From Calditrichota bacterium (GTDB lineage: Bacteria > Calditrichota > Calditrichia > RBG-13-44-9 > J042): DNA of 16,264 bases. The position numbers and the translations under genes were made by a program. Position 1 is the stretch's first letter. Each line of letters begins with the position of its first letter. The stretch covers positions 1 through 16,264 of the forward strand of contig JAADJD010000042.1 of NCBI GenBank assembly GCA_013150955.1, written 5' to 3'. The notes beneath the pieces are model-generated. The model saw nothing but the letters and a program-made list of their open reading frames with translations, did no database searches and was not told where the DNA came from. This document shows positions 840 to 16,081 of the stretch, one piece after another.

Positions 840-2231
840 TCACTCCACCTTTGATGAACGTGAAATTCTAAATCGCTGCAGATAATAATTCAAGGTCGTT
901 CGGGGAATGCCCAGCAACCGCGCGGCACGGGAAATGTTTCCCTCCACCAACTCCAGGGCTTTTTCAATTAACTGGCGCTGCGCTTCATGAAACAGATTCT
1001 TACCCGGCTCCGGAATCAAATTCAACGTTAATCCCGCATCGGCAGTCCATTTGTCATCCGGGGCTCCGGCTCCCCAGAAATCCTTCAAATCGATGACCGT
1101 CCCCTTTTTTAACAACATGGCGCGCTCAATGTAGTTGCGCAATTCCCGCACGTTACCCTGCCAGGGTGCCGAAAGCAAAAAGTGCTCGGCCGCTTCGGTA
1201 ATTCCGGTAACCTGTTTGTGGAATTTTTGATTGAACTGTTCAATAAAATATTTGGTCAGTGGCAAAATGTCTTCCTTTCGTTCCCGCAGCGGTGGAATGC
1301 GCAGGGTAGCCACGTTCAGCCGATAATATAAATCCAGTCGAAATTGTTTCGCCTCCACCCGTTGCCGTAAGTCGGCATTGGTCGCGGCAATAAATCGCAC
1401 ATCCACCCGGATGGGCTGGAGTCCACCAACCCGATAAAATTCCCGCGTTTCCAGCACGTGCAACAGCTTGGTCTGCAAGTCCAGGCTTAATTCGCTGATT
1501 TCGTCCAGAAACAGCGTTCCTCCATCGGCCCGTTCCAGCAACCCAATTTTGCCTTTCTGATCGGCTCCGGTGAAGGCGCCTTTTTCGTATCCAAACAGTT
1601 CGCTTTCCATCAGCTGAGCCGGTATGGCACCACAATTCAGGCTGACAAAGGGTTTGTCAAAGCGGGGACTGTTATAATGGATGTACTGTGCAATCAGATT
1701 TTTCCCGGTGCCCGTCTCCCCGGTGATCAGGATGGTGGTATCGGTCTGGGCAAATTCGCGCGCCATTTCCAGTACCTGTTTCATGGCGGGACAGGCGGAG
1801 ATGATCTGTGGCAACTGCCGCTCCTCCTGAAACGCAGCCTGAAGTTCTTCCACCTCTTTCTTCAGGCGCAAATTGTCCAGGGCCCGTTCAATGGTGAAGC
1901 GAATAAACGCCGGCTGCTCTTTTTTCTGGATAAAATCATACGCCCCCAGCTTCATGGCCTTTACCGCCGTCTCCACACTGCCGTATGCGGTGATCATGAT
2001 GACCATCAACCGGGGAAATTTTTCCAGAAAATCCTCCAGCACGTGGAGTCCATCGATGCCATCCAGCTTATAATCCAGCAGCAGCAAATCGATGGGATGT
2101 TTACGCAGCATCGCCTCGGCTGCTTCCACATTGGTGGCAATAAAGACCTGCTTTTCATCGTCCTGTATCAACCGCTTCAGGGACTTGCACACCAGTTCTT
2201 CATCGTCCAGGATGAGAATGTTAAACCGCAT
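840..2231 (-). CDS. NtrC-family sigma-54-dependent response regulator
   Basis: A 463-residue cytoplasmic transcription activator. Residues 1-120 are a receiver domain with the acidic pair D9/D10, phospho-acceptor D53 (LLLLDYKLDG), T81 and K103. A linker leads to an AAA+ sigma-54-interaction domain: Walker A GETGTGKN at 171-178, the sigma-54 contact loop GAFTGA at 218-223, and Walker B LFLDE with D243/E244. The C-terminus carries a Fis-type helix-turn-helix (NISRAARLLGIPRTTLNYYL). All catalytic residues are intact. A TTG at 2237 is in frame, but the ATG at 2231 is preferred because AGAGGG lies 6 bases before it. The start overlaps the kinase stop by 11 bases, so the two are translationally coupled. 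The divergent nap operon, with a sigma-54-like promoter, is the obvious target; that link is inference. Confidence 0.93.
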   Translation of the reverse strand: MRFNILILDDEELVCKSLKRLIQDDEKQVFIATNVEAAEAMLRKHPIDLLLLDYKLDGIDGLHVLEDFLEKFPRLMVIMITAYGSVETAVKAMKLGAYDFIQKKEQPAFIRFTIERALDNLRLKKEVEELQAAFQEERQLPQIISACPAMKQVLEMAREFAQTDTTILITGETGTGKNLIAQYIHYNSPRFDKPFVSLNCGAIPAQLMESELFGYEKGAFTGADQKGKIGLLERADGGTLFLDEISELSLDLQTKLLHVLETREFYRVGGLQPIRVDVRFIAATNADLRQRVEAKQFRLDLYYRLNVATLRIPPLRERKEDILPLTKYFIEQFNQKFHKQVTGITEAAEHFLLSAPWQGNVRELRNYIERAMLLKKGTVIDLKDFWGAGAPDDKWTADAGLTLNLIPEPGKNLFHEAQRQLIEKALELVEGNISRAARLLGIPRTTLNYYLQRFRISRSSKVE

Positions 2232-4140
2232 GGCCAACCCTCTGCTTGTACGGTAAAGAGATCACAAAAATGGTTCCCAGTCCCAGCTGGCTTTCCACCC
2301 GATACCGGGCATGGTGCTGATCCAGGATTCGCTGCACAATGGCCAGTCCCAGCCCGGTGCCATTGGGGGACTTTGAATAGAAGGGATCGAAAATGCGGCT
2401 CAGGTCTTCGGGAGGGATGCCCCGGCCGGAATCTTCGATGCGAATTTCCAGATGATGGCGCTGGTTACGGGTAACAATCTTTAATTGTCCGGCTCCATCC
2501 ATGGCCTGAAAGGCATTCAGGAATAAATTGATGAACACCTGCTCCAGCTGATGCGGATCGGCCTGCACCTTTCGCGGTTGCTCCACAAATTCGGTCACGA
2601 TCCGAATCCGCGATTTTTCAAATTGCTTCTGCACCAGCACCAGGCTTTTCTCAATCACCGTGTGGATGTCCACCGGTTTAAATTCCGGCTGATGCGGACG
2701 GGCATAATCCAGAATCGCCGACACAATATTCTGAATCCGATCCACCCCATTCTGCAACTCCTGATAAACCTCCTGAAAATCCGGGTCATCGCCAAATCGT
2801 TCCTTTAAATATTCGATGTTATTGTTTAACGCAAACAATGGATTGCGAATCTCATGCGCAATCCCGGAGGAAAGCTGTCCCAGGGCAAACATCTTTTCGG
2901 TCTGGATGGCGTACTGTTCAATTTTCTTGCGTTCGGTCAAATCCCGCACGTAAACAAAGGAAAGATTGGACTGATCCCCCAGAGAAAATCCGCGGATGAG
3001 GTAAATTTCCACCGGGATTTCCAGATCATCGCGGGTGTACAGCACAGTTTCGAAGCGTTCCGAATCGCCATTACTCGGCGTTGCGGGATCGATTTTCCGC
3101 CGCTGACGCAAATCCAGCAAATCCTCCAGTTGCAAATGCCGAATGGTCTCCCGATCATAACCGGTTAAATGCAATAATTTCGAATTGCAATCGATGATTG
3201 CACCGCGTTCGTCCACAATGGCCACCGCTTCCAGCGAATGTTCGATCAGGCTCCGATATTTTTTCTCCGAATCCTTCAGCTGGCGGGTATAGGCCTGAAT
3301 GCGATCGCGCATGACCTCGAATGTGCGAGCCAGATTCCCGATTTCATCGCGCTGTTTTAGATTCAGACTGAAGTTGTACTCCCCCTCCTGAATCTTCCGC
3401 GCCGCACTTTCGATCTTGCGCAGGGGACGAATGACGCTGCCCTGAATGGCGACAAAAATCAAAATGCTTAAAAAGAGGATGGTGAATAGCGCCGAACCAA
3501 ACAAAAAGGCCAGATTGGCCTGCTTGGCCTGCTGGTAACGATCCATATCCACCAGAATGCTGATCCCTCCGCGCAAATCGCCCACCTTGTATCCCTGGGC
3601 GGAATGACAGGTCAAACAGGATTCCTCTGTATACAATGGCGCCACATAGCGGAAAATGGTGTGCCCATCAATTCGTTCCACCCGGTAAAATTCTCCCTGC
3701 TTTACGCGACTGGTGTCCCGCTCAAAATAAATCAGGGCACTGGTCTCAAATTCATCCGGTTTGTTGACGGGATTGATGTACCGTAAACTGGCCATGTGAA
3801 AGGAAAAATTGCCCCCCATGTAGCCACTGAGCTCGCTCAGTTCGCGGGTCACCAGGGCGGGATTTTTCAGGGTCAACGTATCGCCAGAGGTGGTGACCAG
3901 ATCCGGATGGGGCAGATAGGGATTGGACTTGACGCCGGGGAGTTTCAGCACGTACACGCCGTTGTAGCGGGACACCCACTTGCGCACGATCAGGATGTTT
4001 TTGTAAATCGAACGCGCCCGGATGAGCAGATCTTCTTCCATCTGCTTTTCGAACCGTTGCATGAGGACGTAAAAGATGATGGAAATTATGGTGGTTACGG
4101 TCAGGACAATGATCAGGATGACCTTGGTTGTCAGGCGCAT
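2221..4140 (-). CDS. Membrane histidine kinase with periplasmic haem-c sensor domain, HAMP and PAS
   Basis: A 639-residue sensor kinase. TM1 spans about 7-27 and TM2 about 209-232. The periplasmic part (about 28-208) ends in ESCLTCH at 173-179, a c-type haem attachment motif, followed by GDLRGGISILVDMD, which resembles DUF3365/Tll0287-like sensor domains. Then come HAMP (about 234-288), PAS (about 295-400), HisKA with H429 in SSGIAHEIRNP, and the ATP-binding domain with an N box near N542, the D570-S-G-R-G box and GTGLGLA at 594-600. All kinase motifs look functional. The haem suggests sensing of redox state or of a gas or nitrogen oxide (inference). No strong ribosome-binding site precedes the ATG at 4140; the spacer there is A/T-rich. 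Confidence 0.92.
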   Translation of the reverse strand: MRLTTKVILIIVLTVTTIISIIFYVLMQRFEKQMEEDLLIRARSIYKNILIVRKWVSRYNGVYVLKLPGVKSNPYLPHPDLVTTSGDTLTLKNPALVTRELSELSGYMGGNFSFHMASLRYINPVNKPDEFETSALIYFERDTSRVKQGEFYRVERIDGHTIFRYVAPLYTEESCLTCHSAQGYKVGDLRGGISILVDMDRYQQAKQANLAFLFGSALFTILFLSILIFVAIQGSVIRPLRKIESAARKIQEGEYNFSLNLKQRDEIGNLARTFEVMRDRIQAYTRQLKDSEKKYRSLIEHSLEAVAIVDERGAIIDCNSKLLHLTGYDRETIRHLQLEDLLDLRQRRKIDPATPSNGDSERFETVLYTRDDLEIPVEIYLIRGFSLGDQSNLSFVYVRDLTERKKIEQYAIQTEKMFALGQLSSGIAHEIRNPLFALNNNIEYLKERFGDDPDFQEVYQELQNGVDRIQNIVSAILDYARPHQPEFKPVDIHTVIEKSLVLVQKQFEKSRIRIVTEFVEQPRKVQADPHQLEQVFINLFLNAFQAMDGAGQLKIVTRNQRHHLEIRIEDSGRGIPPEDLSRIFDPFYSKSPNGTGLGLAIVQRILDQHHARYRVESQLGLGTIFVISLPYKQRVGHAV

Positions 4141-4474: not shown

Positions 4475-4790
4475 TAAACCCAACGGATGCTCAAGACCAC
4501 GAATGATGCGAATGAACAGCAAAACAAAGGTTCATCCAGATAGAATCCAGTGGTGTTATTTTTATCCCGGATTATGCATGAGCCTACGAATTACACGAAT
4601 TAAAACGAATAAAAATAATAAAATCCATTTGATGATAGTTGGATGAAAATGTGTTCCGGGTTTATTCGCGATTTTGCCGATATTTTTTGGCTTCATTCGC
4701 GTGATTCGCGGTTTAATGCATTATTTGGGTTTATTAGTGTTCATTCGTGGAATTCTTAGGGGAATACATCATCCAAATTCAACCCAGATC
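4475..4790 (-). repeat. Minus-orientation repeat element interrupted by a second copy
   Basis: Bases 4475-4560 (TAAACCC end, CCACGAATGATGCGAATGAA, core GATAGAATCCAGTG) match one side of the element in minus orientation. The match resumes after 4732 (TTAGTGTTCATTCGTGG and a degenerate end to about 4790). The plus-orientation copy at 4564-4732 lies between the halves, so this reads as a nested insertion. Confidence 0.5.
4564..4732 (+). repeat. MITE-like palindromic element, copy B (full length)
   Basis: A 169-bp copy starting ATCCCGGATTATGCAT, with the core GGATGAAAATGTG and an end reading TGCATTATTTGGGTTT. It is colinear with the copies at 15370-15540 and 15914-16081. Confidence 0.75.
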
Positions 4791-4799
4791 ATGCATTCG

Positions 4800-4846
4800 C
4801 AACCGGTTCATTCGCGATTTAATCCAATTATAATCAACCGGTTCAT
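4800..4846. repeat. Pair of 12-bp direct repeats CAACCGGTTCAT
   Basis: CAACCGGTTCAT occurs at 4800-4811 and again at 4835-4846, 35 bases apart start to start. Each contains the palindrome AACCGGTT. Whether they are debris of the repeat family or binding sites cannot be told from sequence. Confidence 0.35.
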
Positions 4847-4870
4847 GTAAAATTATTTGTTTAAGAACCG

Positions 4871-5095
4871 TTACGTTTTTTCTACAATAATATCATCTTC
4901 TAAAAATTTGTTTTTATTCGCGTTTATTCGTGTAATTCGTGGTTTAAAACATAATTTGGGTTCAATGCTCCTGGATTGGGTTTCTTCGAACTCAGGGCCT
5001 TTCTCGATTAACCCGATGGGTGATTCCGGTAAAATGGAGTAAATTGACCGCATACCAACAGGGTGACGGTATACCGTCACATCAAGTGAATTCAT
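4871..5095 (-). CDS. Questionable small ORF with a strong ribosome-binding site
   Basis: An ATG at 5095 on the minus strand is preceded by AGGAGG with a 6-base spacer, as good as any site in the window. The 74-residue product begins MNSLDVTVYRHPVGMRSIYS and ends in residues encoded by a repeat arm (PRITRINANKNKF). No domain is recognised, and the 18-bp palindrome falls inside its first codons. It may be a genuine small gene, a decayed gene whose 3' end was replaced by the repeat, or chance. I keep it only because of the ribosome-binding site. Confidence 0.22.
   Translation of the reverse strand: MNSLDVTVYRHPVGMRSIYSILPESPIGLIEKGPEFEETQSRSIEPKLCFKPRITRINANKNKFLEDDIIVEKT
4912..4965 (+). repeat. 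Partial repeat element (right arm)
   Basis: TTATTCGCGTTTATTCGTG followed by AATTCGTGGTTTAAAACATA and ATTTGGG matches the right arm of the element, without the core. Translations of this arm give the FIRVIRG-type peptides that are frequent spurious ORFs. Confidence 0.5.
5045..5080. promoter_or_regulatory. Candidate activator-binding site: tandem palindrome upstream of the nap operon
   Basis: GTGACGGTATACCGTCAC at 5063-5080 is a perfect 18-bp palindrome. Nineteen bases upstream, TGACCGCATACCAACA (5045-5060) matches TGACGGTATACCGTCA at 12 of 16 positions. The pair lies about 80-110 bp before the sigma-54-like -24 element, where NtrC-type activators usually bind. Binding by the divergently encoded response regulator is inference. 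Confidence 0.5.
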
Positions 5096-5230: not shown

Positions 5231-6733
5231 ATGAGATACGCCATAGCCATCGCCATTACCCTGTCCATTTTCATGACCTCTGCCCTGGCCACGGAATTTA
5301 AAGTCAGTGGTGTGTACACCGCCTGGGGACAATCGCAGCATGATTTCTGGTTCGGGAAAAAAGGAAAAGCCAACGAAGACTACAATGACAATTACGTGGT
5401 GCAAATGCTGCGATTCAAAGTGGTGGGGGCTGTTAATGACAATTTGCGCTTTGTGACCCGTCTGGACATTGCTCAGGGCTGGTGGGGTATTGATAACGCT
5501 CTGCGGAGCGTCCAGCGCACCCAGACCGCCGGGGGTAGCTCGCTTTTCGATTTTAAGGACACCAACTTCCTGGTACACGTGGATCAGGCCTATGTGGAAT
5601 TCACCGTCCCCAACACGCCGCTGGATGTCCGGGTGGGACGCATGTGGTATGGTCTGGGCAATCGGATTATGGTGGATAACAACTACGACGGGGTGCAGTT
5701 CGATTTGAAGGATGTTGTTGGCAAAAAGCTCACCTTTAGCTGGGCAAAAGTGTCCGAAGGCGTGGACGCCCTGAGTGACGAACGGGTGGTAAAACCGGAT
5801 GCCCGCGGCTACACCGATGCCCGTGACGCCCACATGTTTATCCTGAACCTCAACAATGCCACCGGCTCCTTGAATTACGACGTGTACGGCATGTACTACT
5901 GGGATGCTTCCATTGCCGATGGCAATGCCTATGTGCCCGACCACCTGCAATTCTTCAAAACCCGTTTCTCTCCTCAAATCAGCAACCTGATGGCCATTGG
6001 TCTGGCGGGAACATTCAAAAAGGACAAACTCACCATCAAAGGCGAACTGGATTATCTGAGCGGGAAAGACAAAATCAAGAATACCACCTATGGCCTCAAA
6101 CAGAAATGGGACATTAACAACGGCGATCTGAGCGGTTACAACATTTATTTGAAAACCACTTATGCGGCCACCGATAAAGTCTCCGTGGGTGCGGTGTTTG
6201 GAATGGGATCCGGTGACGACGATTTGACCGGCGGAAAAGGCAACGTGAACAAGCTGCGCACCTCCGGTTTCTTCTACATCACCGAAGTGTGGGAAGATTC
6301 CATCATGCCGGATGAAGAGGGCATTACACCTCAGGGTCTGGGCGCGCCCAACGTACGGGGCTACCGCGAGCTGGAAAATACTACCATTCTGCAGCTCAAC
6401 ACCACCATCAAGCCCGTACCCAAACTGTCCTGCTTCTTCTCCTATAACTATCTCAAAGCCACCCAGCCCATTCCCAAATGGGTTTATAAAGAAAGAAAAG
6501 AAGGTGATAAAATCATCGTAGAAAAGAATGAAATCGATTACTCCGAAACCGCCACCGATCTGGGTCAGGAAGTAGACTTCAAGATTTCCTATAAAATGTA
6601 CAAAGAACTGGATCTGACCCTTCGCGGTGGAGTGTTCATGCCGGGCGATGCGGCCGCTTTCTTAATCAACGGAACCAATAAATTCAAGAAAAATGCCTGG
6701 GAGCTGAAGGCCACCATTACCTACAAATTCTAA
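5231..6733 (+). CDS. Outer-membrane beta-barrel porin, first gene of the nap operon
   Basis: A 500-residue exported protein. The signal peptide is MRYAIAIAITLSIFMTSALA, with cleavage expected before TEFKVSG. The rest consists of alternating amphipathic strands rich in Tyr, Trp and Gly with Asp/Asn turns (for example VRVGRMWYGLGNR and ELDYLSGKDK), and the protein ends in the aromatic ...ITYKF typical of barrels recognised by the BAM machinery. It contains no haem motif. The frame is open further upstream to a TTG at 5123, but the ATG at 5231 follows GAGGAGG by 5 bases and begins the signal peptide. Leading the operon, it may admit nitrate or export nitrite; I recognise no named family and this role is inference. 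A 12-bp hairpin follows it. Confidence 0.85.
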   Translation: MRYAIAIAITLSIFMTSALATEFKVSGVYTAWGQSQHDFWFGKKGKANEDYNDNYVVQMLRFKVVGAVNDNLRFVTRLDIAQGWWGIDNALRSVQRTQTAGGSSLFDFKDTNFLVHVDQAYVEFTVPNTPLDVRVGRMWYGLGNRIMVDNNYDGVQFDLKDVVGKKLTFSWAKVSEGVDALSDERVVKPDARGYTDARDAHMFILNLNNATGSLNYDVYGMYYWDASIADGNAYVPDHLQFFKTRFSPQISNLMAIGLAGTFKKDKLTIKGELDYLSGKDKIKNTTYGLKQKWDINNGDLSGYNIYLKTTYAATDKVSVGAVFGMGSGDDDLTGGKGNVNKLRTSGFFYITEVWEDSIMPDEEGITPQGLGAPNVRGYRELENTTILQLNTTIKPVPKLSCFFSYNYLKATQPIPKWVYKERKEGDKIIVEKNEIDYSETATDLGQEVDFKISYKMYKELDLTLRGGVFMPGDAAAFLINGTNKFKKNAWELKATITYKF

Positions 6734-6741
6734 AAAATCAC

Positions 6742-6775
6742 CGGGAGGGGAAGTGTGCGGCTTCCCCTCCCGTTT
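6742..6775 (+). terminator. Hairpin after the porin gene (leaky terminator or mRNA stabiliser)
   Basis: CGGGAGGGGAAG and CTTCCCCTCCCG form a perfect 12-bp stem around a 7-base loop, followed by only three T residues. Lying 8 bases after the porin stop and inside the operon, it probably lets part of transcription through or protects the porin message. Confidence 0.6.
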
Positions 6776-6808
6776 ACTCATCGTTAACAAAAAATACGAG
6801 GTAGAGCA

Positions 6809-7177
6809 ATGAAACATCATCTGGTCACCCTTTTTGGCGTGTTTGCCCTGAGCATTCTGTTGATTGGCCTTTCTTTTGCTTTACCCGAAGGCACTCAAGG
6901 GGAACAGCATCCCGATGTGGATTTTGACGTCAGCTGTATGGAGTGCCATGCGGAGGAAACGCCGGACATTTTCAGCGACTGGCAGGGCAGCAAGCACGGT
7001 TTCATGAATTTTGGTTGTTATATGTGCCACGGTGACGGTACGGTGGATTTCGAAATTAAGCCCAGCACGGACAAATGTGCCAGTTGTCACGGCGGATATT
7101 CGGTGGATTTTTCTCGCCTGAACGTAAACAGCTGTTTTGATTGTCACCCCGGTCATACGTTGAAATTGCATCAATAG
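6809..7177 (+). CDS. napM: Small tetraheme cytochrome c (NapM-like)
   Basis: A 122-residue periplasmic cytochrome. An N-terminal hydrophobic segment (about 5-24, ending LSFALPEG) is a signal peptide or anchor. Four CxxCH motifs start at C43 (CMECH), C70 (CYMCH), C90 (CASCH) and C109 (CFDCH), and further histidines (H34, H63, H116) can act as distal ligands. Size, haem number and position directly before napA match NapM of the napMADGH-type clusters known from sulfate reducers, where it carries electrons to monomeric NapA. The ATG follows GAGGT at a good distance. The stretch SKHGFMNFGCYMCH resembles SRHAVMGIGCYECH at the start of the octaheme protein of this operon. Cytochrome identity is certain; the NapM name is likely. 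Confidence 0.85.
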   Translation: MKHHLVTLFGVFALSILLIGLSFALPEGTQGEQHPDVDFDVSCMECHAEETPDIFSDWQGSKHGFMNFGCYMCHGDGTVDFEIKPSTDKCASCHGGYSVDFSRLNVNSCFDCHPGHTLKLHQ

Positions 7178-7198
7178 AAAATTAAATAGGAGGTGAAC

Positions 7199-9469
7199 AT
7201 GCCTTTAAAACGTAGAGAATTTCTCAAAGCCTCGGCAGCGGCAGCCGCGGCCGCCAGCATCGGCGTAAACCTGATTCCCGGCATGGAAAACAAGCTGTTT
7301 GCCGATGCCATCACCTGGCATAAATCGGTGTGTCGGTTTTGTGGAACCGGTTGTGGTGTGATGATCGGGAAAAAGGGGGATAAGGTGGTGGCCATCAAAG
7401 GCGATCTGGAGAATCCCATTAACAAAGGCCATATTTGCGTCAAGGGCTTTTTCCTGCACAAAGTGATTTATGCCAGGACGCGCCTGCTATATCCCATGAT
7501 TCGTAAAAACGGCAAATTTGTGCGGGTAAGCTGGGACGAGGCGCTGGATTACGTGGCCAAACGGTTCAACGAAATTCGGGAAAAATATGGGCCCGATGCC
7601 CTGGCGTTTTACGGCTCCGGTCAGGCTGAGACGGAAGAAACCTACATGGCCAATAAGCTCTTCAAGGGCTGCATTGGCACCAACAACATGGAAGGGAATC
7701 CCCGCCTGTGCATGGCCAGTGCGGTGGGGGGCTACCTTACCAGTCTGGGTTTGGACGAACCCGCCGGTACCTATCAGGACATTGAACATGCGGAGCTGTT
7801 TTTGCTGATTGGTTCCAACACGGCGGAATGCCACCCCATTATTTTTGAACGCATTGTGCGGCACAAAACCAAAAATCCCAATGTCAAGATCATCATCATC
7901 GATCCCCGCAAAACCCCCACGGATCAGGTGGCCGATCTGCACCTGTTTCCCAAACCGGGGTGGGATCTGGCCGTCCTGCATGCCATGGCGTATGTGATCA
8001 TCAAAGAAGGCTATGCGGATCTGGACTTCATCAAAAAACATGTCAATTTCAAGAATAACGAGGGCAAGGACATTAGCTTCGAGGAGTTTCAGAAATTTCT
8101 GGAAGATTACACCCCGGAAAAGGCCGAAAAAATCAGCGGTGTCCCTGCCAGTGAGATCGTCAAGGCGGCCCGCATGTTTGGCCAGGCCAGAACGGCCATG
8201 AGCATGTGGACGATGGGGATCAACCAGCGAACGCGCGGTGTATGGGCCAACAATCTGATTCACAACCTGCATTTGTTAACCGGGAAGATCGGGGTGCCAG
8301 GCAGCGATCCGTTCTCCCTGACCGGTCAGCCGAACGCCTGCGGTGGGGTGCGTGAAGGCGGCGGGCTATGCCACCTGCTCCCTGGCCATCGAAAGGTCAC
8401 CAATGCCAAGCATCGCGAAGAAGTGGCCAGAGTATGGGGCGTACCGGTGAGCAACATTCAGCCCAAACCCGGAAAGCACACCATTGCCATGTTCGAGGCG
8501 CTGAATGAGGGTAAGATTAAAGGCATTTACATCATGTGCACCAATCCGGCCCAATCGCTGCCTCATGCGCAAAAATTCTGGAAAGGCCTGAAGGAACAGT
8601 TCGTGGTGCTGGCGGAATCGTTTTATCCCACCGCCACCTCGGAATACGCAGACGTGTTGCTACCGGCCGCTTTCTGGGCGGAGAAGGAAGGCGTCTACGG
8701 CTGCACCGAACGCCGATCCCAGTACATGCCCCAGGTACTGCAACCCATGGGCGAAGCCCGCTGGGATGCCTGGATTTTGCGAGACCTGGCCATCCGAATG
8801 GGCTTTAAGAAGGAATTTGAAAAGTACAAAACGGCGGAAGATATCTGGAACGAGTACATCAGCCTGACCAAGGGTCGGGATATGGATTTGAGCGGCGCCA
8901 CCTATCGCCGCCTGAAGAAGGTACGGGGGCTGACCTGGCCGGTACCCAGCGAAGACCATCCCGGCACCTACAAGCGATACGTGAAAGGCGATCCTTTCTT
9001 CGACAAACTGCCGGAGGAAAAGAAGAAAGGTCGTCGGATGTACTTCTACGGAAAACCGGACGGCAAGGCCGTGGTGTGGGCACGACCCGCCAAACCACCG
9101 GCAGAACCCACAGACAAAGACTATCCCTTCGCGCTCACAACCGGAAGGGTACTGGAACACTGGCACACGGGTACCATGACCCGTGCGGTTCTGGAACTGG
9201 AACGCGCGGTGCCCAAAGCATACGTGGAAATTCACCCGGATGATGCTAAAAAACTGGGCATTGCCAATAAGGATATGGTCATTGTGGAAACCCGGCGCGG
9301 TAAGTTGAAAATCGAGGCGCGGGTCATCGACCGCCCCGAACCGGGAACGCTGTTCATCCCCTGGCACTGGAAAGAATGGCTGGCGAACCTGCTGACCATC
9401 GACGCATTCGATCCGGGTTCCAAGGAACCAGAATACAAAGTTGCCGCAGCCCGAATTTACAAGGCATAG
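7199..9469 (+). CDS. napA: Periplasmic nitrate reductase catalytic subunit NapA
   Basis: A 756-residue molybdoenzyme reducing nitrate to nitrite in the periplasm. It begins with a Tat signal (KRREFLKASAAAAAAAS). The [4Fe-4S] ligands are C45, C48, C52 and C80, followed by K82, the lysine that relays electrons to the molybdopterin. C171 in NPRLCMASAVGG is the expected Mo ligand. The C-terminus FIPWHWKEWL..TIDAFDPGSKEPEYKV is typical of NapA. At about 755 residues it matches the monomeric form rather than the ~830-residue NapB-bound proteobacterial form, and no napB is present. A GTG at 7193 is in frame, but the ATG at 7199 sits 5 bases after AGGAGG. NapD downstream is its chaperone. Nitrate specificity is inferred from family and context. 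Confidence 0.96.
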   Translation: MPLKRREFLKASAAAAAAASIGVNLIPGMENKLFADAITWHKSVCRFCGTGCGVMIGKKGDKVVAIKGDLENPINKGHICVKGFFLHKVIYARTRLLYPMIRKNGKFVRVSWDEALDYVAKRFNEIREKYGPDALAFYGSGQAETEETYMANKLFKGCIGTNNMEGNPRLCMASAVGGYLTSLGLDEPAGTYQDIEHAELFLLIGSNTAECHPIIFERIVRHKTKNPNVKIIIIDPRKTPTDQVADLHLFPKPGWDLAVLHAMAYVIIKEGYADLDFIKKHVNFKNNEGKDISFEEFQKFLEDYTPEKAEKISGVPASEIVKAARMFGQARTAMSMWTMGINQRTRGVWANNLIHNLHLLTGKIGVPGSDPFSLTGQPNACGGVREGGGLCHLLPGHRKVTNAKHREEVARVWGVPVSNIQPKPGKHTIAMFEALNEGKIKGIYIMCTNPAQSLPHAQKFWKGLKEQFVVLAESFYPTATSEYADVLLPAAFWAEKEGVYGCTERRSQYMPQVLQPMGEARWDAWILRDLAIRMGFKKEFEKYKTAEDIWNEYISLTKGRDMDLSGATYRRLKKVRGLTWPVPSEDHPGTYKRYVKGDPFFDKLPEEKKKGRRMYFYGKPDGKAVVWARPAKPPAEPTDKDYPFALTTGRVLEHWHTGTMTRAVLELERAVPKAYVEIHPDDAKKLGIANKDMVIVETRRGKLKIEARVIDRPEPGTLFIPWHWKEWLANLLTIDAFDPGSKEPEYKVAAARIYKA

Positions 9470-9486
9470 TGCGGACGCTCCTCCGG

Positions 9487-9514
9487 GGGTGGGGCCCACT
9501 GCCCCACCCTTTTT
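9487..9514 (+). terminator. Intrinsic terminator-like hairpin after napA
   Basis: GGGTGGGGC and GCCCCACCC form a 9-bp stem around CCACT, followed by TTTTT. It has the form of a rho-independent terminator but lies between napA and the ferredoxin gene, so it would lower rather than stop expression of the downstream genes. Confidence 0.7.
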
Positions 9515-9538
9515 ATTACCAAAACACGAGGAGATCCA

Positions 9539-10159
9539 ATGAAAACGCTGGAAAAAACCGTCACCCGAAAAGATTTCTTCAAAGAAATCTTCCAGCTGTT
9601 TCGGAATGGTGGAGTGGCCACGGAAACGGAATCACATGCCCGCCAGTTGCAAAAGTACATCCTTCCCCCCGGAGCCGGGAACGAAGCGCAATTTCTTCAG
9701 CAATGCAACCAGTGCCAGGCATGCGTGAGCGCCTGTCCGCATTTTGCCATTCAAATTTGCCGGGACGAAACCAGCCATCTGTATGGTTACCCGGTCATTG
9801 CACCCCGGCAACAGGCCTGTTATCTGTGCCGGGATTTTCCCTGCATTCAGGCGTGCCCGACGGACGCCCTTTCGACTGCCAATCACCCCCAAAAACTGGG
9901 AACGGCACGAATCCACGCTGCCCGCTGCCTGGATTATCTGCAGGGATTCTGCCAGAGCTGCTTGAACCACTGTCCGCACATGGGGCGGGCGATTTTCCGG
10001 AACGCAACCGGCCAGTTGCACATCAATCCCCAACACTGCACCGGTTGCGGCATTTGTGTGATGGTTTGCGTGCAGGAACAATCCGCCATCGAAATTTTAC
10101 CGGTGCAAAACGAACCCATGGCGTTCACCGAAAACGTTTCATCCAACAGGGATCCATAA
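9539..10159 (+). CDS. Four-cluster [4Fe-4S] ferredoxin, NapF/NapG family
   Basis: A 206-residue iron-sulfur protein with four cysteine sets: C56/59/62/66, C94/97/102/106, C130/138/141/145 and C167/170/173/177. The third set, with the wide C-x7-C spacing (CLDYLQGFCQSC), and the fourth, CTGCGICVMVC, are typical of the NapG/MauM group, while the fourth-cluster sequence also fits NapF. The N-terminus (MKTLEKTVTRKDFFKEIFQL) has no twin-arginine or hydrophobic signal, so the protein is expected in the cytoplasm, as for NapF, which is thought to act in maturing NapA. ATG at 9539 follows GAGGAG by 5 bases. It lies between napA and napD. NapF is the better functional guess, but the sequence does not settle it. 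Confidence 0.8.
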   Translation: MKTLEKTVTRKDFFKEIFQLFRNGGVATETESHARQLQKYILPPGAGNEAQFLQQCNQCQACVSACPHFAIQICRDETSHLYGYPVIAPRQQACYLCRDFPCIQACPTDALSTANHPQKLGTARIHAARCLDYLQGFCQSCLNHCPHMGRAIFRNATGQLHINPQHCTGCGICVMVCVQEQSAIEILPVQNEPMAFTENVSSNRDP

Positions 10160-10178
10160 AAGCAAAGGAGTATGACGT

Positions 10179-10448
10179 ATGCCAATTGCAGGTGTTGTTG
10201 TCGTAACGGTACCGGAACGGACATCCAGTGTGCTGCAGGAATTGAAGAAACTGAGCAACGTAACCACTTACGGGGTACACAAGGAAAATAACATCATCGC
10301 CGTGCTGGAATCGGACACCACCAAAGGCCTGGAGCAGTTGTCCAATCAAATCAGCCAGGCCATTCAGGGGGTTATTGGGGTGTTCCCGGCATATATCAAT
10401 TTCGAGGATGAGATTTCAGATTCCGGAACGGATACATCCACCAATTAA
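10179..10448 (+). CDS. napD: NapD, chaperone for NapA maturation
   Basis: An 89-residue cytoplasmic protein of the NapD family, which binds the Tat signal of NapA and holds back export until the cofactor is inserted. It shows the typical start PIAGVVVVTVPERTSSVLQE, a conserved valine-rich strand followed by an amphipathic helix, and the GVIGVFPAYINFED ending expected of the ferredoxin-like fold. Length is normal. The ATG at 10179 follows AAAGGAG by 8 bases, 19 bases after the preceding stop. Its stop codon (10446-10448) lies in the end sequence of a diverged repeat element. Confidence 0.88.
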   Translation: MPIAGVVVVTVPERTSSVLQELKKLSNVTTYGVHKENNIIAVLESDTTKGLEQLSNQISQAIQGVIGVFPAYINFEDEISDSGTDTSTN

Positions 10449-10619
10449 ACCCTAATTAGGCTTTAGACCACGAATGACACGGATGAATACAAATAAAAAT
10501 CCTGGAAGACGATATTATCGCCGGCAAAACATACCGGTGCTGAAACGAATCTATCAGAAACGATTGATTTTAACTGTATTAGACCCCAATGAGCCGGTTG
10601 TGAATGCATAATCCGGGTT
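10446..10619 (-). repeat. Diverged MITE-like element between napD and napG (copy C)
   Basis: This 174-bp spacer starts TAAACCCTAATTAGG, continues ACCACGAATGACACGGATGA and ends GAATGCATAATCCGGGTT, matching both ends of the 174-bp copy at 443-616 in the same orientation; the middle has diverged. It begins at the stop codon of napD. CCTAATTAGG (10451-10460) is a perfect palindrome near its edge. No other gene or clear promoter is seen in the spacer. Confidence 0.5.
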
Positions 10620-10647
10620 CAACATAAAAACGGGATAGCCATCGGGC

Positions 10648-11157
10648 ATGATTCTGGATTTTCTGAAAAAATTGGCGCAGCTGCATCCACCGCTGCGGCC
10701 ACCTGGCGCCATCGACGAGGCGGCCTTTCAGAAATATTGTATTCGCTGTCGGAAGTGTGCTGAGGTGTGCCCATATGGCTCCATTCGAATGACGCACGGG
10801 GAATGGGGCATCAAAATGGGAACACCGGTCATTTATCCCCGGCAAACGCCCTGCTACCTGTGCATGAAGTGCCCGCCGGTGTGCCCCACCGGTGCGCTGG
10901 ATCCGATTACCGACATGACCGCCGTGAAAATGGGAACGGCCGTTATTCAAACAGAATCGTGCTTGGCATATAACGGGGTGCTGTGCCGCGCCTGTTACGA
11001 GCGCTGTCCCATTTATCGCGAAGCCATTACCCTGAAGGAAGAAATTTACCCGGTGGTGCATCCCGAAAAGTGTGTGGGATGCGGCATTTGCGAAAGTGTT
11101 TGTCCAACAGAGCCGGCATCCATCACCGTAACAAGCAAACATTTTGGAGCATGGTGA
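10648..11157 (+). CDS. napG: NapG-type four-cluster ferredoxin without Tat signal
   Basis: A 169-residue protein with four [4Fe-4S] sets: C31/34/37/41, C69/72/75/79, C105/113/116/120 and C142/145/148/152. The surrounding sequence (LRPPGAIDEAAF, CIRCRKCAEVCPYGSI, SCLAYNGVLCRACYERCP, CVGCGICESVCP) is characteristic of NapG, which with NapH passes electrons from quinol towards NapA. NapG normally starts with a Tat signal and acts in the periplasm. Here the protein begins MILDFLKKLAQLHPP with no twin arginine or export segment, and an in-frame stop at 10636-10638 rules out an upstream extension. No good ribosome-binding site precedes the ATG. The gene sits directly after the repeat copy at 10446-10619, so its 5' end may have been altered. 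Confidence 0.85.
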   Translation: MILDFLKKLAQLHPPLRPPGAIDEAAFQKYCIRCRKCAEVCPYGSIRMTHGEWGIKMGTPVIYPRQTPCYLCMKCPPVCPTGALDPITDMTAVKMGTAVIQTESCLAYNGVLCRACYERCPIYREAITLKEEIYPVVHPEKCVGCGICESVCPTEPASITVTSKHFGAW

Positions 11158-11158
11158 G

Positions 11159-12043
11159 ATGGTCGATCCCGTTCGTCACCTGAACAATCACCTGCACCTG
11201 TATCGCCGCATCAGTCAATGTCTGGTGATGGCCGCCATTATCCTGATCCCGGTGCTCAACACCTTTCAGGTTAACACCGTGATCGGAACCTTTTATAGTT
11301 TGACCATCGGCCATCTCACCGTGATGGATCCGGCTCTGTTGATTCAATTGGTACTGCTTACCGGAAAACTGGCCTTCCCCTGGTTACTGGCGGCAGCCAT
11401 TCCCTTTTTGATGGCCGCATTTCTGGGCAAGGTTTTTTGTAGCTGGATGTGTCCCTTCAATTTGCTGGGGGAATGGGCACAGCATCTGCGTCGCCGGATC
11501 GGGAAACCGGCTCCGCCCCTGCGATTCTTCAATCCACCAGCAATCCGATACTGGATGATCCTTGCCGGCCTATTCCTGATCCTGGCCATTCTGGGGATTC
11601 CATTAATCAATTTCATTTCCATGCCGGGACTCATCTCTGCCCAAATCGCCGATCTGATTGTCAACAAAACGCTGGGCATCGAGGTGGCGCTGGTCTTCAT
11701 CATTCTGCTTCTGGAAATGGCCACACGATCACGCTTCTGGTGCAAATATCTGTGTCCCGTGGGAGCCACGCTGGCCCTTCCCATGCACAGGCACACCCTG
11801 CGGGTGGCCTATTCTCCGCAAAAGTGCGAAGCCTGCACCGTGCGGGGGCCCCACAAACCGTGTGGCAACGCCTGTCCATTCCATCTGGATCCTCGACGCC
11901 CGGATATTTATCCCTACTGCTACAATTGTGGGGAATGCGTGGCGGCCTGCCAGCAACGGGGACAGGCCCTGCGCCTGACGTTTACCCCGACGCGGAAAAT
12001 TAAACGGCAAAGCCCGGCTCGAATCATCGAAAACACCGATTAA
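11159..12043 (+). CDS. napH: NapH, membrane quinol-oxidising iron-sulfur protein
   Basis: A 294-residue integral membrane protein. Hydrophobic segments lie at about 22-42, 69-93, 131-155 and 172-188. It has the family's two CxxxCP motifs (CSWMCP at 94-99 and CKYLCP at 195-200) and two C-terminal [4Fe-4S] sets, C223/226/235/239 and C254/257/260/264. The first set has an extended C-x8-C spacing instead of the usual C-x2-C. NapH oxidises menaquinol and partners NapG. A TTG at 11144 is in frame, but the ATG at 11159, one base after the napG stop and 9 bases after GGAG, gives the expected length and suggests coupled translation. Confidence 0.88.
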   Translation: MVDPVRHLNNHLHLYRRISQCLVMAAIILIPVLNTFQVNTVIGTFYSLTIGHLTVMDPALLIQLVLLTGKLAFPWLLAAAIPFLMAAFLGKVFCSWMCPFNLLGEWAQHLRRRIGKPAPPLRFFNPPAIRYWMILAGLFLILAILGIPLINFISMPGLISAQIADLIVNKTLGIEVALVFIILLLEMATRSRFWCKYLCPVGATLALPMHRHTLRVAYSPQKCEACTVRGPHKPCGNACPFHLDPRRPDIYPYCYNCGECVAACQQRGQALRLTFTPTRKIKRQSPARIIENTD

Positions 12044-12058
12044 CCATGGAGGTGCATA

Positions 12059-12523
12059 ATGAGTCATGAAGAGGCCAAACAAACCCGAAGAAGTTTCCTG
12101 AAAAACTTCGGTATCCTGGGTGCGCTTACCCTGGCGGCACTGGGATTTCTGCGCAACCTGGTGCTGTACCTCTTCCCTCCCCTGGAAAAGAAGAAGTACC
12201 ACAAGTACCTGGTCAGTAAGGAAAGTGAAATTCCCGTGGGTAAGGCCAAAAAAATCACCATTGGTCGAAAGCCCGTGTACGTGGTGCATTTGGAGTCCGG
12301 GTACAAAGTCTTTTCCGGGATTTGCACCCATCTGGGCTGCATCATTCGCTGGGAAGAGGAAAAAGGGCGATTCTACTGCCCGTGCCACAAAGGGGTGTTC
12401 GATAAGAACGGCACCGTCCTGAGTGGCCCACCACCCCGTCCTCTGGACGAATTCAAAGTGGAGGTAGATAAAAAATTGGTCTTCATCTATGTGGAAGAGA
12501 AAATCAGGGGGCCATGGACATGA
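12059..12523 (+). CDS. Rieske [2Fe-2S] protein of a cytochrome b complex
   Basis: A 154-residue Rieske subunit. A Tat-type anchor (TRRSFLKNFGILGALTLAAL) is followed by the soluble domain. Box I is CTHLGC (ligands C89 and H91) and box II CPCHKG (ligands C107 and H110); C94 and C109 form the disulfide. The downstream GPPPRPL is the usual Pro loop. Compared with high-potential proteins reading CPCHGSHY, the Ser and Tyr that hydrogen-bond the cluster are G112 and F114, which is known to go with lower potential and menaquinol. GGAGGTG lies 4 bases before the ATG, 15 bases after napH. The cytochrome b gene overlaps its stop by 4 bases, so the two form one complex. It could be named petC or qcrA by family. 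Confidence 0.93.
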   Translation: MSHEEAKQTRRSFLKNFGILGALTLAALGFLRNLVLYLFPPLEKKKYHKYLVSKESEIPVGKAKKITIGRKPVYVVHLESGYKVFSGICTHLGCIIRWEEEKGRFYCPCHKGVFDKNGTVLSGPPPRPLDEFKVEVDKKLVFIYVEEKIRGPWT

Positions 12524-13566
12524 GCTGGAAAGAATGGTTTAAAGAACGCTTTCCCATCGACTATCAAAAATTTGTGGAATTCAATGAACGGATTTTCATT
12601 AAAGAACCCATCCCCGTGCACATGAAAAAATGGTTCTACTGCATGGGGGCCACGCCGTTAATCTTGGCCGGATTTCAGATTATCACCGGAATTCTGTTGA
12701 TGTTCTATTTTGTACCATCTCCGGAAATGGCTTACGAAAGCATCCGGCACATAACAGAGGACGTTCGTGTGGGATTCTGGGTACGGGGGTTGCACCGTTG
12801 GGGATCTAACCTGATGATCATCGCCCTGTTGTTGCACATGACCCGCGTGTTCTTTACCCGGGCCTATCAAAAACCCCGGGAGTTGAACTGGATAATCGGC
12901 GTGATGTTATTTCTGGTCACCATGGGGCTGGCGTTTACCGGTTATTCGTTAACTTATAACCAACTCAGTTACTGGGCCACCACGGTAGGCACCAATTTAA
13001 TCCGGGAAGTGCCATTGATCGGGAAATGGGTCTTCCTCTTTCTGCGTGGCGGGGAAGAAGTGACCGCCAACACGCTAACCCGCTTCTACTACATTCACGT
13101 GGGATTTCTGCCCCCACTGCTCATTTTCCTGATTGCCCTGCATATCATTATCCTGCGGCTGCATGGGGTGTCGGAACCCGAAGGGTTTCCTAAGGGATAC
13201 TACCCGTTCTATCCGCATCATTTTTACAAGATCATCATTGCCACACTTTTCCTGCTGACGCTGATGAGTACGCTCACGGTCATTCTGCCACCGGGCATCG
13301 GGGTTCCTGCGGATCCCACTGTTACGCCGGCGCATATTAAGCCAGAATGGTATTTCTATCCCACGTATCGCTTCCTGAAACTGGTTCCACTGAAAGTGGG
13401 CATTTACGCCACGGCAGCGTTCATGGTGGCCATGACCTTCTGGCCATTCATCGAACCCATGATTGCGAAAAAGAAAGAAACCCGGATCAAGACCAGCTTT
13501 GCGGTGGGTGCGTTAACGCTGATCATCACACTGGCGTTGACCATCTGGGAAACGATTGCCATGTAA
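12520..13566 (+). CDS. Cytochrome b, b6 type with fused subunit IV
   Basis: A 348-residue membrane protein with about eight helices, the quinol-oxidising partner of the Rieske protein. Haem b ligands are H92/H106 and H193/H208; the 15-residue spacing of the second pair is the b6 pattern (14 in mitochondrial cytochrome b). C41 in KWFYCMGATP aligns with the b6 cysteine that covalently holds haem c_i. PEWY at 275-278 marks the quinol-oxidation site, here in the same chain, so the b6 and subunit-IV parts are fused. Two ATGs are in frame; 12520 is preferred over 12514 because it overlaps the Rieske stop as ATGA and lies 8 bases after AGGGGG. There is no cytochrome f or c1 gene; the octaheme gene that follows is the likely substitute. 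Confidence 0.93.
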   Translation: MSWKEWFKERFPIDYQKFVEFNERIFIKEPIPVHMKKWFYCMGATPLILAGFQIITGILLMFYFVPSPEMAYESIRHITEDVRVGFWVRGLHRWGSNLMIIALLLHMTRVFFTRAYQKPRELNWIIGVMLFLVTMGLAFTGYSLTYNQLSYWATTVGTNLIREVPLIGKWVFLFLRGGEEVTANTLTRFYYIHVGFLPPLLIFLIALHIIILRLHGVSEPEGFPKGYYPFYPHHFYKIIIATLFLLTLMSTLTVILPPGIGVPADPTVTPAHIKPEWYFYPTYRFLKLVPLKVGIYATAAFMVAMTFWPFIEPMIAKKKETRIKTSFAVGALTLIITLALTIWETIAM

Positions 13567-13606
13567 ACCGAGAAAACAACAGATTAACCTTATCAGGAGG
13601 GTCAAT

Positions 13607-15226
13607 ATGGATACTGTAAAAGCACAGCAATGGCTTATCGGGATTTTCAGCGTCTTACTGATTGTTTCCTTGCTGATCGTGGCAGGCGTGGAGATGAAGA
13701 AAACCCGCACCTTTAAACCCGAAATCGAAATCGATGAAACCACGGCCAAATGTATTAACTGCCACGAAAAGAAAGGCATTGCAGTAAAGTTGATCGACGA
13801 ATGGAAGGAAAGTCGGCACGCGGTGATGGGCATTGGTTGCTATGAATGCCACCAGGCTGCGGAAGAGGATTTCGACGCCTTCCGCTGTCCGGAAAGCGAA
13901 TTCATCATCGGTAAACATCCCACGCCCAAGGATTGTAACCAGTGCCACGAGGATCAGGTGAAGGAATTTAACAACAGCAAGCATGCGGCCGCTCAGATCA
14001 TGATGGCGCTGAAAGGACCGGATCGCAACGTCTTTCAGCCCACCATTTCCACCAAACACGGCTGCGAACAATGCCACAACATTGGCAACTACTGGCCAGA
14101 CGGTAGCATCGGGGAATGCGATGCCTGCCATTCCAAACATCGGTTTTCGCTGAAGCAGGCCCGCCATCCCGAAACCTGCGGAGAATGCCACATCGGGCCG
14201 GATCATCCGCATATCGAAATCTACCTGGAATCCAAGCACGGGAACCTGTACGTGGCCCACAAGGACGAATGGGATTGGAATTATCCACCGGGAGAACCGG
14301 TTCCCTTTAGCGCACCCACCTGCGCTACCTGTCACATGAGCGCTACCCGAACGAACAAAAAATCCACCCACAACGTCAGCAATCGATTGACCTGGGAAAG
14401 CCAGGCTCCGTTTTCCGTACGTACCCAGGAATATTGGGGAGGCATCAGCTGGCAGGAAAAACGAGCCAACATGGAAGGCGTGTGCTACCAGTGCCACTCT
14501 CAAAGTTTTGCCGATCGCTACCTGCTGGTGGCCGACCTGGTCAACCTGCAATATAACGAAATCTGGAAGGCGACCATCGATTGGATGAATCTTTTGAAAA
14601 AATACAACGTAATAAAGACAGATCGCTTTATGTACGAAGGGGATTTCATTACGGCCTGGCCAAAAGAAGGCTACGATGAGGAAGTGGAACATATTGCGTA
14701 CCGCAACTGGCATCACGAAGGTCGCCGCTTCCGGCATGGCGCGGAAATGATGGGTGCGGACTACACGCAATGGCACGGCATCTGGGAACTGCAGGAGAAT
14801 CTGGTGAAGATCATTGAATATGGTGCAGAACACGGCGTACCGGAAGCTAAACGGTGGATGAACAGTAAGGATCCCAACAAATTCATCATGTACGCCTTAT
14901 ACGACATACCCGGAAGCACCTGGGGCCCATCGGCATTGATGTATCGGGGACAGATGCCCATGGATCGGATTCCCAATTACTGGGAAATTGTATACAAAAA
15001 CGTGAAGGCCGCTTACGAAAAGGGATTGTTGACCGACAAACAGTGGGCCCTGTACGAAGAGATTTACAAGAACAAGGACAAAGAAATTGGCCGCATCTAT
15101 CCCCTGCCCGAATTGCACGAGGAACTGCTGAAGAATCTGAATTATGACCTGAAGAAACTGTATCCTGAACAAAAGCTGACTCTGACACCATTCAATATTC
15201 CATTTCAGAAAGGTTCCGGTTACTGA
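13607..15226 (+). CDS. Membrane-anchored octaheme cytochrome c, hydroxylamine oxidoreductase (HAO) family
   Basis: A 539-residue protein with eight CxxCH motifs starting at C49, C78, C110, C153, C171, C191, C239 and C293, and a long helical C-terminal half, as in HAO. An uncleaved-looking N-terminal helix (about 9-28) anchors it to the membrane. The segment GADYTQWHG (383-391) lies in the region after haem 8. Family members oxidise hydroxylamine or hydrazine, or reduce nitrite; which applies depends on the active-site haem tyrosine, which I cannot assign without an alignment. The frame is open to 13556, but the ATG at 13607 is 6 bases after AGGAGG and starts the anchor. As last gene after Rieske and cytochrome b, it is a likely electron acceptor of that complex, perhaps a nitrite reductase (inference). 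Confidence 0.9.
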   Translation: MDTVKAQQWLIGIFSVLLIVSLLIVAGVEMKKTRTFKPEIEIDETTAKCINCHEKKGIAVKLIDEWKESRHAVMGIGCYECHQAAEEDFDAFRCPESEFIIGKHPTPKDCNQCHEDQVKEFNNSKHAAAQIMMALKGPDRNVFQPTISTKHGCEQCHNIGNYWPDGSIGECDACHSKHRFSLKQARHPETCGECHIGPDHPHIEIYLESKHGNLYVAHKDEWDWNYPPGEPVPFSAPTCATCHMSATRTNKKSTHNVSNRLTWESQAPFSVRTQEYWGGISWQEKRANMEGVCYQCHSQSFADRYLLVADLVNLQYNEIWKATIDWMNLLKKYNVIKTDRFMYEGDFITAWPKEGYDEEVEHIAYRNWHHEGRRFRHGAEMMGADYTQWHGIWELQENLVKIIEYGAEHGVPEAKRWMNSKDPNKFIMYALYDIPGSTWGPSALMYRGQMPMDRIPNYWEIVYKNVKAAYEKGLLTDKQWALYEEIYKNKDKEIGRIYPLPELHEELLKNLNYDLKKLYPEQKLTLTPFNIPFQKGSGY

Positions 15227-15254
15227 CCCGCCCCCACGGGTTGTAACAACCACG

Positions 15255-15289
15255 CAGCCGATCCGCCCGGCGGATCGGCTGTTTTTTTT
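15255..15289 (+). terminator. Strong intrinsic terminator of the nap operon
   Basis: CAGCCGATCCGCC and GGCGGATCGGCTG form a near-continuous stem (about 11-12 usable pairs with a small loop), followed by eight T residues. It lies 29 bases after the octaheme stop. Confidence 0.93.
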
Positions 15290-15297
15290 GGATTTGC

Positions 15298-15350
15298 CCA
15301 CGAATGAGGCGAATGAATCCAGATTATGTATTAGCCTACGAATTACAAGA
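15298..15350 (+). repeat. Partial repeat element (left arm)
   Basis: CCACGAATGAGGCGAATGAA, then CCAGATTATGTATTAGCCTA and CGAATTACAAGAATTCACA repeat the left-end motif of the element that follows at 15370. Confidence 0.5.
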
Positions 15351-15369
15351 ATTCACACCAATAAAAATA

Positions 15370-15540
15370 ATCCCAGATTAAGCAATAGCCTACGAATTAC
15401 ACGAATTAACACAAATAAAACCAATAAAATACATTAGATTGTGTCTGTATGAAAATGTGTCCCAGGGTTTATTCGCGATTTTGTAGATATTTTTTGGTTT
15501 TCATTCGCGTGATTCGCGGTTTATTGCATTATTTGGGTTT
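15370..15540 (+). repeat. MITE-like palindromic element, copy D (full length)
   Basis: A 171-bp copy from ATCCCAGATTAAGCAATAG through ATGAAAATGTGTCCCAGGG to TTATTGCATTATTTGGGTTT, in the same orientation as the copies at 4564 and 15914. Confidence 0.75.
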
Positions 15541-15620
15541 AGTCCTTGCCATTCTTTTGTCAGAACGCTGTGTGGTTGGAAAATGGAACGCATGTACCCG
15601 GTAGATGCGAGAATTATGCT

Positions 15621-15846
15621 CAGTTTACAGTTTGCAATTGGCAGTGGGCAGTGGTAGCCGCAGGCTTTACGCCCATGTTCCAGTAGGCAGTATGCAGTTG
15701 GCAACGGTAGTCGCAGGCTTTACGCCCATGTTCCAGTAGGCAGTTTGCAGTTGGCAATGGTAGCCGCTGGTTTTACGCCCATGTTCCAGTGGGCAGTTTG
15801 CAGTATGCAGTTGGCAACTGTAGCCGCAGACTTTACGTCTGCGTGA
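15621..15846. repeat. Four-unit tandem repeat, 53/60 bp
   Basis: Units at 15621-15680 (60 bp), 15681-15733 (53), 15734-15786 (53) and 15787-15846 (60) each run from CAGT..GCAGT heptamers through GCAGTTGGCAA and GTAGCCGCAGGCTTTACGCC to CATGTTC. The 7-bp length difference equals one extra CAGTTTG/CAGTATG-type heptamer. The last unit ends in a perfect hairpin, CGCAGAC-TTTAC-GTCTGCG (15825-15843 approximately). Short ORFs here are products of the repeat. Confidence 0.75.
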
Positions 15847-15913
15847 TGACAGGCCGACTGAAAGAGAATTAGAATATTCTGAAAACGTAACAAGTCCAAT
15901 GTACACTTACATA

Positions 15914-16081
15914 ATCCCAGATTATGCATTAGCCTACGAATGACACGAATGAACACCAATAAAAAAATAAAATGCACTTGATTCTATCTGGATGAAAATG
16001 TTTACCCGGATATATTCGCTATTTTGTTGATTTTTTTCGATTTCATTCGCGTGATTCGTAGTTTACCGGTTTATTTGGGAT
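15914..16081 (+). repeat. MITE-like palindromic element, copy E (full length, reference copy)
   Basis: A 168-bp unit beginning ATCCCAGATTATGCATTAG and ending TTATTTGGGAT. The first ~45 bases (CCTACGAATGACACGAATGA) and the last ~45 (TTCATTCGCGTGATTCGTAG) are imperfect inverted repeats, with the core TTGATTCTATCTGGATGAAA between. It encodes nothing. Confidence 0.75.

Follow-up and report, generated by a model that had tools for sequence, protein, structure and literature searches.

The window analysed here, the whole 16,264-nt stretch of a Calditrichota genome, contains ten co-directional genes on the + strand (5231-15226; Table 1) for a porin, a NapM-like cytochrome, NapA, an Fe-S protein, NapD, a second Fe-S protein, NapH, a Rieske protein, cytochrome b and an octaheme cytochrome. 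We propose that these genes probably form a cluster for periplasmic respiration of nitrate to ammonia, in which the Rieske protein, cytochrome b and the octaheme would make up an electrogenic, membrane-bound menaquinol:nitrite oxidoreductase. The cluster and its electron path are already published for Caldithrix abyssi, and there is an analogous proposal for Nitrospira. To this picture our sequence comparison makes a useful addition: an N-terminal anchor appears to mark those octahemes that are bound to a Rieske/cytochrome b (Rieske/b) complex.

We surveyed 40 Calditrichota genomes and scanned named genomes, which yielded 80 loci, and defined a triad as a Rieske gene, a cytochrome b gene and then an octaheme gene on the same strand (counted over the window, L034-L053 and L054-L133; L041 was included although its contig ends within cytochrome b). 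A full-length octaheme (about 540 residues, 55-92% identical) was present in 11 of the 40 Calditrichota genomes, the window's own included, where it always adjoined cytochrome b and adjoined the Rieske gene wherever the contig reached that far. The window holds an orthologous copy of the cluster in another family of the phylum than C. abyssi. An earlier note, made from the sequence of the window, had proposed a search for conserved adjacency; this returned the full nap cluster, in complete synteny, in at least 5 other Calditrichota genomes as well as in KSB1 and Marinimicrobia, and because the whole order recurs in these genomes it is not due to chance. The triad itself was found at 38 loci in more than a dozen phyla, in a fixed order with the octaheme directly 3' of cytochrome b. 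Its hosts are Calditrichota, KSB1, Chrysopegis, Marinimicrobia, Ignavibacteria, Bacteroidota, Chlorobiota, Planctomycetota (including Anammoxibacter), Nitrospinaceae, Acidobacteria, Myxococcota, Poribacteria, Spirochaetia, Omnitrophota and others. Nap genes lay upstream of 15 triads and a NapA-like gene downstream of nine (in L085 and L087 the downstream nap is of the NapAGHB type), three triads were cut by contig ends, and 11 had no nap within the contig, where nap may sit elsewhere in the genome. Since the triad occurs with nap upstream, with another type of nap downstream or with none in the contig, it is, judged by gene order, the triad and not the nap operon that is the conserved independent unit. 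The view of the earlier note that the Rieske/b and octaheme genes are the nap operon's own module thus does not hold, with 11 of the 38 triads lacking nap within the contig. The note had named the occurrence of these genes without nap in relatives as a refutation; what this strikes is the coupling to nap, not the coupling between the octaheme and Rieske/b. Its pairing of the octaheme with Rieske/b is supported by their co-occurrence far beyond the host genome. Full-length octahemes of the window's class also occur in Chloroflexi, Desulfuromonas-like and Denitrovibrio genomes (L063-L070, L084), where they lack Rieske/b and mostly carry signal peptides.

The N-terminus separates the two groups of octahemes. 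An uncleaved N-terminal hydrophobic helix was present in 38 of 38 triad octahemes and in 2 of 61 octahemes outside a triad (Fisher test, 2e-25); L073 and L074, in which the anchor is present, were left out of this comparison, as their contigs stop shortly upstream. In the triad octahemes the helix is followed at once by charged residues and by a linker of 20-26 residues to the first haem, while the 59 non-triad proteins without an anchor mostly resemble cleavable signal peptides at this end. When a tree was computed with the N-terminus left out, nine changes of the triad label were seen on it, and in six independent, well-supported contrasts the anchor goes with the triad in all or nearly all (sign test, p 0.03). 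Within Calditrichota the helix is 84-94% identical, compared with 55-58% for the whole protein and 16-24% for the signal peptides of NapM, and in C. abyssi it is the best-conserved 32-residue window of the octaheme. Such conservation goes beyond the need of a bare tether, and contact with cytochrome b or the Rieske protein would require it, which argues that the octaheme is a subunit of the complex.

The Rieske and cytochrome b proteins have the features expected of a quinol-oxidising complex: the [2Fe-2S] motifs of the Rieske protein, four haem-b histidines and PEWY. Cytochrome b (350 residues) joins a b6 part (1-222) and a subunit-IV part (233-347) in one chain; His94, His108, His195, His210 and PEWY (277-280) were invariant in the 12 sequences aligned, and the helix-D histidines are 14 residues apart, which is the b6 spacing. 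The haem-ci cysteine, present in the window, is Val in C. abyssi and is replaced in some others too, and was dropped as a defining trait of this cytochrome b. In bc1 Rieske proteins, a Ser and a Tyr raise the redox potential. Among the readable triad sequences the Ser is Gly or Ala in 29 of 29 and the Tyr is Phe in 27 of 29, a low-potential signature that fits menaquinol; together with the spacing and the invariant residues, this supports the b6-type menaquinol complex suggested in the earlier note. The cluster holds no gene for a dedicated mono- or dihaem cytochrome c1/f subunit, and the octaheme directly follows cytochrome b.

The octaheme carries eight CxxCH motifs. An AlphaFold model from 91 sequences reached a pLDDT of 89 (an earlier model from 18 sequences, with a pLDDT of 56, was too poor) and has the HAO fold. 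Its closest solved relative in both fold and sequence is 4qo5, which we take to be the Ignicoccus hospitalis octaheme (VIA Z 24.7, rmsd 2.4, 22-28% identity); HAOs and Kustc0457/0458 follow at Z 22-23, and NrfA, TvNiR and MccA come far lower (Z 5.6-9.6). Asp199-His200, aligned with the DH of HAO, is invariant in 91 of 91 octahemes. By sequence the C-terminal third can be aligned with 4qo5 but not with HAOs, which leaves the HAO cross-link tyrosine without a firm counterpart (column 386 is Y, F, W or I across the family); Kublanov et al. 2017 (PMC5317091) report that this tyrosine is missing from the C. abyssi octaheme. The host genome (4.07 Mb, 99.7% complete) was also searched for other nitrite reductases, including the nrfA that the earlier note wished to see checked. 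It contains no NrfA over the cut-off (PF02335 matched only an 8-haem protein, below threshold at 20.6 bits), and neither Hcp nor a siroheme nitrite reductase domain (NIR_SIR) was found; a search with NrfD_2 was uninformative, as it matched in none of the control genomes. With none of these found in the genome, NrfA at the cut-off used, the octaheme is the best candidate for the conversion of nitrite to ammonium.

In the proposed mechanism NapA, with NapM and NapD, would reduce nitrate to nitrite, and the Rieske protein, the b6-type cytochrome b and the octaheme would form the membrane-bound menaquinol:nitrite oxidoreductase. The Qo (PEWY) site would oxidise menaquinol; of its two electrons, one would travel by way of the low-potential Rieske cluster directly into the octaheme and from there to nitrite (six electrons to ammonium), while the second would recycle through the b haems, making the step electrogenic and energy-conserving. 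The N-terminal helix would hold the octaheme in the complex in place of a cytochrome c1/f. NapA itself may be fed by NapGH or by the Rieske/b complex via NapM. In several Calditrichota and other genomes, octahemes without Rieske/b adjoin a NapC/NrfH-like quinol dehydrogenase, which suggests that the two donors replace each other; in L044-L047, where Rieske/b is missing, a five-haem membrane protein of the NapC/NrfH type comes after an octaheme of about 440 residues that has a signal peptide. In L052 an octaheme with a signal peptide stands next to a Rieske/b that has a nine-haem cytochrome of its own. A more far-reaching form of the proposal holds that the octaheme is a permanent, anchored catalytic subunit that replaces cytochrome c1/f, giving a single-complex, Q-cycle-driven menaquinol:nitrite (ammonifying) oxidoreductase in more than a dozen phyla; various types of nap would have come to lie next to it, and a NapC-type donor would be its interchangeable alternative. 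We consider this form about as likely as not.

Several points weigh against the proposal. The cluster is known here from its genes alone, the triad and anchor calls rely on BLAST and on a regular expression applied to short loci, and the triads may go back to a small number of ancestors, with strong support for just six of the contrasts in the tree. Conservation of the helix is clear in Calditrichota and weaker in distant triads, and the anchor could merely tether the octaheme. The host genome also has other multihaem cytochromes and a second Rieske-cytochrome b complex with its own nine-haem cytochrome, beside 8- and 12-haem cytochromes (L140 3650-6481, G000:C25). Finally, for Kuenenia, no model of Kuste4574 within its complex could be obtained (PMC12954380).

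We therefore considered other explanations. In one of them, Rieske/b would serve NapA (via NapM), either in addition to the octaheme or instead of it, and the octaheme would be a nearby nitrite reductase that draws on any low-potential carrier in the periplasm; this view, allowed by Kublanov et al. 2017, seems to us possible but doubtful. Inspection by eye showed no hydrophobic signal in either Nap Fe-S protein, be it in the window or in the same-nap-type relatives read, so that no exported (twin-arginine translocation, Tat) NapG was found there, whereas a Tat signal was predicted for the C. abyssi NapG (PMC5317091). The NapGH route to periplasmic NapA is therefore doubtful, and delivery from Rieske/b via NapM stays an alternative, all the more as NapC is absent from the cluster, NapM was proposed as a mediator (PMC5317091) and Qcr-coupled nitrate respiration is reported in a paper that PMC6896113 cites. 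However, the Rieske/b genes go with the octaheme and not with nap, as the triads without nap in the contig illustrate, the anchor of the octaheme tracks Rieske/b, and MADGH-type nap clusters without Rieske/b exist (Deferribacter, without qcrABC). We consider it unlikely that the genes are simply neighbours with shared regulation and that the octaheme, independently tethered to the membrane, takes electrons from several donors. Adjacency and the anchor are all that has been observed, and the second Rieske/b-nonaheme complex and the other multihaem cytochromes of the genome would suit such a view, but the fixed order across phyla, the tight match of anchor and triad and the extreme conservation of the helix in Calditrichota speak against it. 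An octaheme that is oxidative or releases hydroxylamine as product (HAO or reverse-HURM type) is very improbable, since in spite of the HAO fold and of the reverse-HURM pathway proposed for Nautilia (PMC3701875), the genome has no Hcp for hydroxylamine uptake, the gene is co-located with nap, the cross-link tyrosine is missing in C. abyssi (PMC5317091) and the C-terminal third aligns with 4qo5 rather than HAO.

The preferred reading, a nitrite reductase that is a subunit of a Rieske/b complex, would have consequences beyond this phylum. Nap plus NrfA, or plus eHao, with NapC-type donors is held to conserve energy poorly or not at all. If the reading is correct, many uncultured anaerobes would carry out ammonification as an electrogenic process, and a bc complex would end directly in a terminal reductase. 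The anchor would offer a simple sequence mark for predicting such complexes, and the wide spread of the triad and the tight link between anchor and Rieske/b make the published idea testable.

Table 1. Features of the window, with coordinates and the basis of each assignment
Feature	Position	Strand	Basis or remark
NtrC-type sigma-54 response regulator, divergent from operon	840..2237	-	Pfam Response_reg, Sigma54_activat, Fis HTH
Sensor histidine kinase; periplasmic Tll0287-like domain with CxxCH, HAMP, PAS	2221..4140	-	Domain search and sequence
Outer-membrane porin, DESULF_POR1-like (below cut-off), kept in relatives	5231..6733	+	Profile match
Hairpin then T-rich tract, porin-napM gap	6742..6772	+	9/10 genomes with both genes found
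Tetraheme cytochrome, NapM-like	6809..7177	+	Cytochrom_c3_2; same position as C. abyssi napM
NapA, monomeric Desulfovibrio-type periplasmic nitrate reductase, Tat signal	7193..9469	+	Domain and structure match
Terminator-like hairpin, napA to first Fe-S gene	9485..9511	+	11/11 genomes, sequence differs
Four-cluster ferredoxin, NapF/NapG-like; RK motif, no hydrophobic segment	9539..10159	+	Sequence
NapD chaperone	10179..10448	+	PF03927
199-nt gap with dispersed repeat copy	10449..10647	.	About 20-50 nt in same-genus relative
NapG-like four-cluster ferredoxin without signal peptide	10648..11157	+	Sequence
NapH membrane Fe-S protein	11144..12043	+	Domain match
Rieske subunit, Tat-type anchor; Gly and Phe replace Ser and Tyr of high-potential Rieske	12059..12523	+	Sequence
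Cytochrome b, b6 plus subunit-IV part in one chain	12514..13566	+	Four haem His and PEWY invariant
Octaheme HAO-family protein (eHao/OCC type), uncleaved N-terminal membrane helix	13607..15226	+	8 CxxCH, HAO fold
Strong intrinsic-terminator-like hairpin 3' of octaheme gene	15254..15290	+	Sequence

All ten genes were located in the order and direction that the earlier note had given, and a domain search of their products agreed with it in finding neither NapB nor NapC domains. Nap here is of the NapMADGH type (napA, napD, napG/H and a tetraheme napM, without napB), and the closest solved structure to its NapA is the monomeric enzyme of D. desulfuricans (2jio, 834 bits). The short gaps and overlaps that the note described are mostly there, the genes from the second Fe-S gene to the octaheme overlapping or nearly abutting, except for the 199 nt after napD and the hairpins after porin and napA. 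These conserved hairpins interrupt the cluster and make the single transcription unit that the note had assumed doubtful. Both are strong, with T-rich tails and unlike sequences; the one in the porin-napM gap recurs in 9 of the 10 genomes where both genes were found, the one after napA in all 11 genomes compared, and terminator-like hairpins are nearly absent from the other operon gaps. This pattern suggests graded expression or processing and would be compatible with read-through.

The NtrC-type regulator gene is kept beside the operon in L037, L039 and L043. A search for a sigma-54 promoter 5' of the operon gave nothing above chance in the window; in L071 (Marinimicrobia) a perfect sigma-54 site, TGGCAC-N5-TTGCT, lies about 48 nt 5' of the nap-cluster porin, which fits a regulator of this type. 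The CxxCH motif in the Tll0287-like domain of the kinase reads CLTCH, and the domain may therefore be a haem-binding sensor for a redox or nitrogen-oxide signal. A dispersed intergenic repeat family with the core CGAATKACACGAATKAA occurs in the window at 450-790, 4469-4960, 10440-10630 (within the operon), 15319-15545 and 15905-16075; the exact core has 533 copies in the 4.07-Mb genome versus 0 for the reversed control. A tandem array with a 53-nt period lies 3' of the operon (15599-15840). Elsewhere in the host genome we noted an eight-haem cytochrome that carries a type-9 secretion sorting domain and may therefore reach the cell surface (L049 4627-6096, G000:C11), and three adjoining 17 to 19-haem cytochromes, one of which matches the NapC/NirT family (L143 1109-8562, G000:C49).

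Among known systems, eHao/HaoC and NrfHA pair an octaheme or pentaheme nitrite reductase with a NapC/NrfH-type quinol dehydrogenase, whereas in the window the quinol donor would be the Rieske/b complex and the genome has no NrfA over the cut-off. In Nitrospira an octaheme nitrite reductase (ONR/OCC) stands beside Rieske and cytochrome b genes (petBC), with NapC in their place in lineage IV (PMC6606698, PMC6311188, PMC12342949), and an analogous electron path was proposed (PMC6606698, PMC12342949); by description this arrangement is like that of the window, but the proposed role is assimilatory. The Kuste4569-4574 complex of Kuenenia stuttgartiensis, with its co-migrating HAO-like octaheme subunit (PMC12954380), likewise combines a b6-type Rieske/b complex with an HAO-like octaheme; unlike the window, it has a split b6/subunit IV, an extra multihaem cytochrome, an NAD(P) oxidoreductase-like subunit and a high-potential Rieske protein (303 mV). 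The nearest system is that of C. abyssi (Cabys_2564-2556), where the octaheme was named eHao, NapB and NapC are missing, and Rieske/cytochrome b was proposed to oxidise quinol and donate to NapM and/or eHao, with energy conservation possible (PMC5317091). It differs from the window in that only one Rieske/cytochrome b pair is reported (PMC5317091), while the window's genome has a second complex, and in that a repeat copy is inserted after napD in the window. Genes, order and proposed electron path are otherwise the same, and L039 (G001, very probably C. abyssi) corresponds to the window gene for gene, porin, kinase and regulator included, with identities of 83% for napA, 76% for cytochrome b and 58% for the octaheme.

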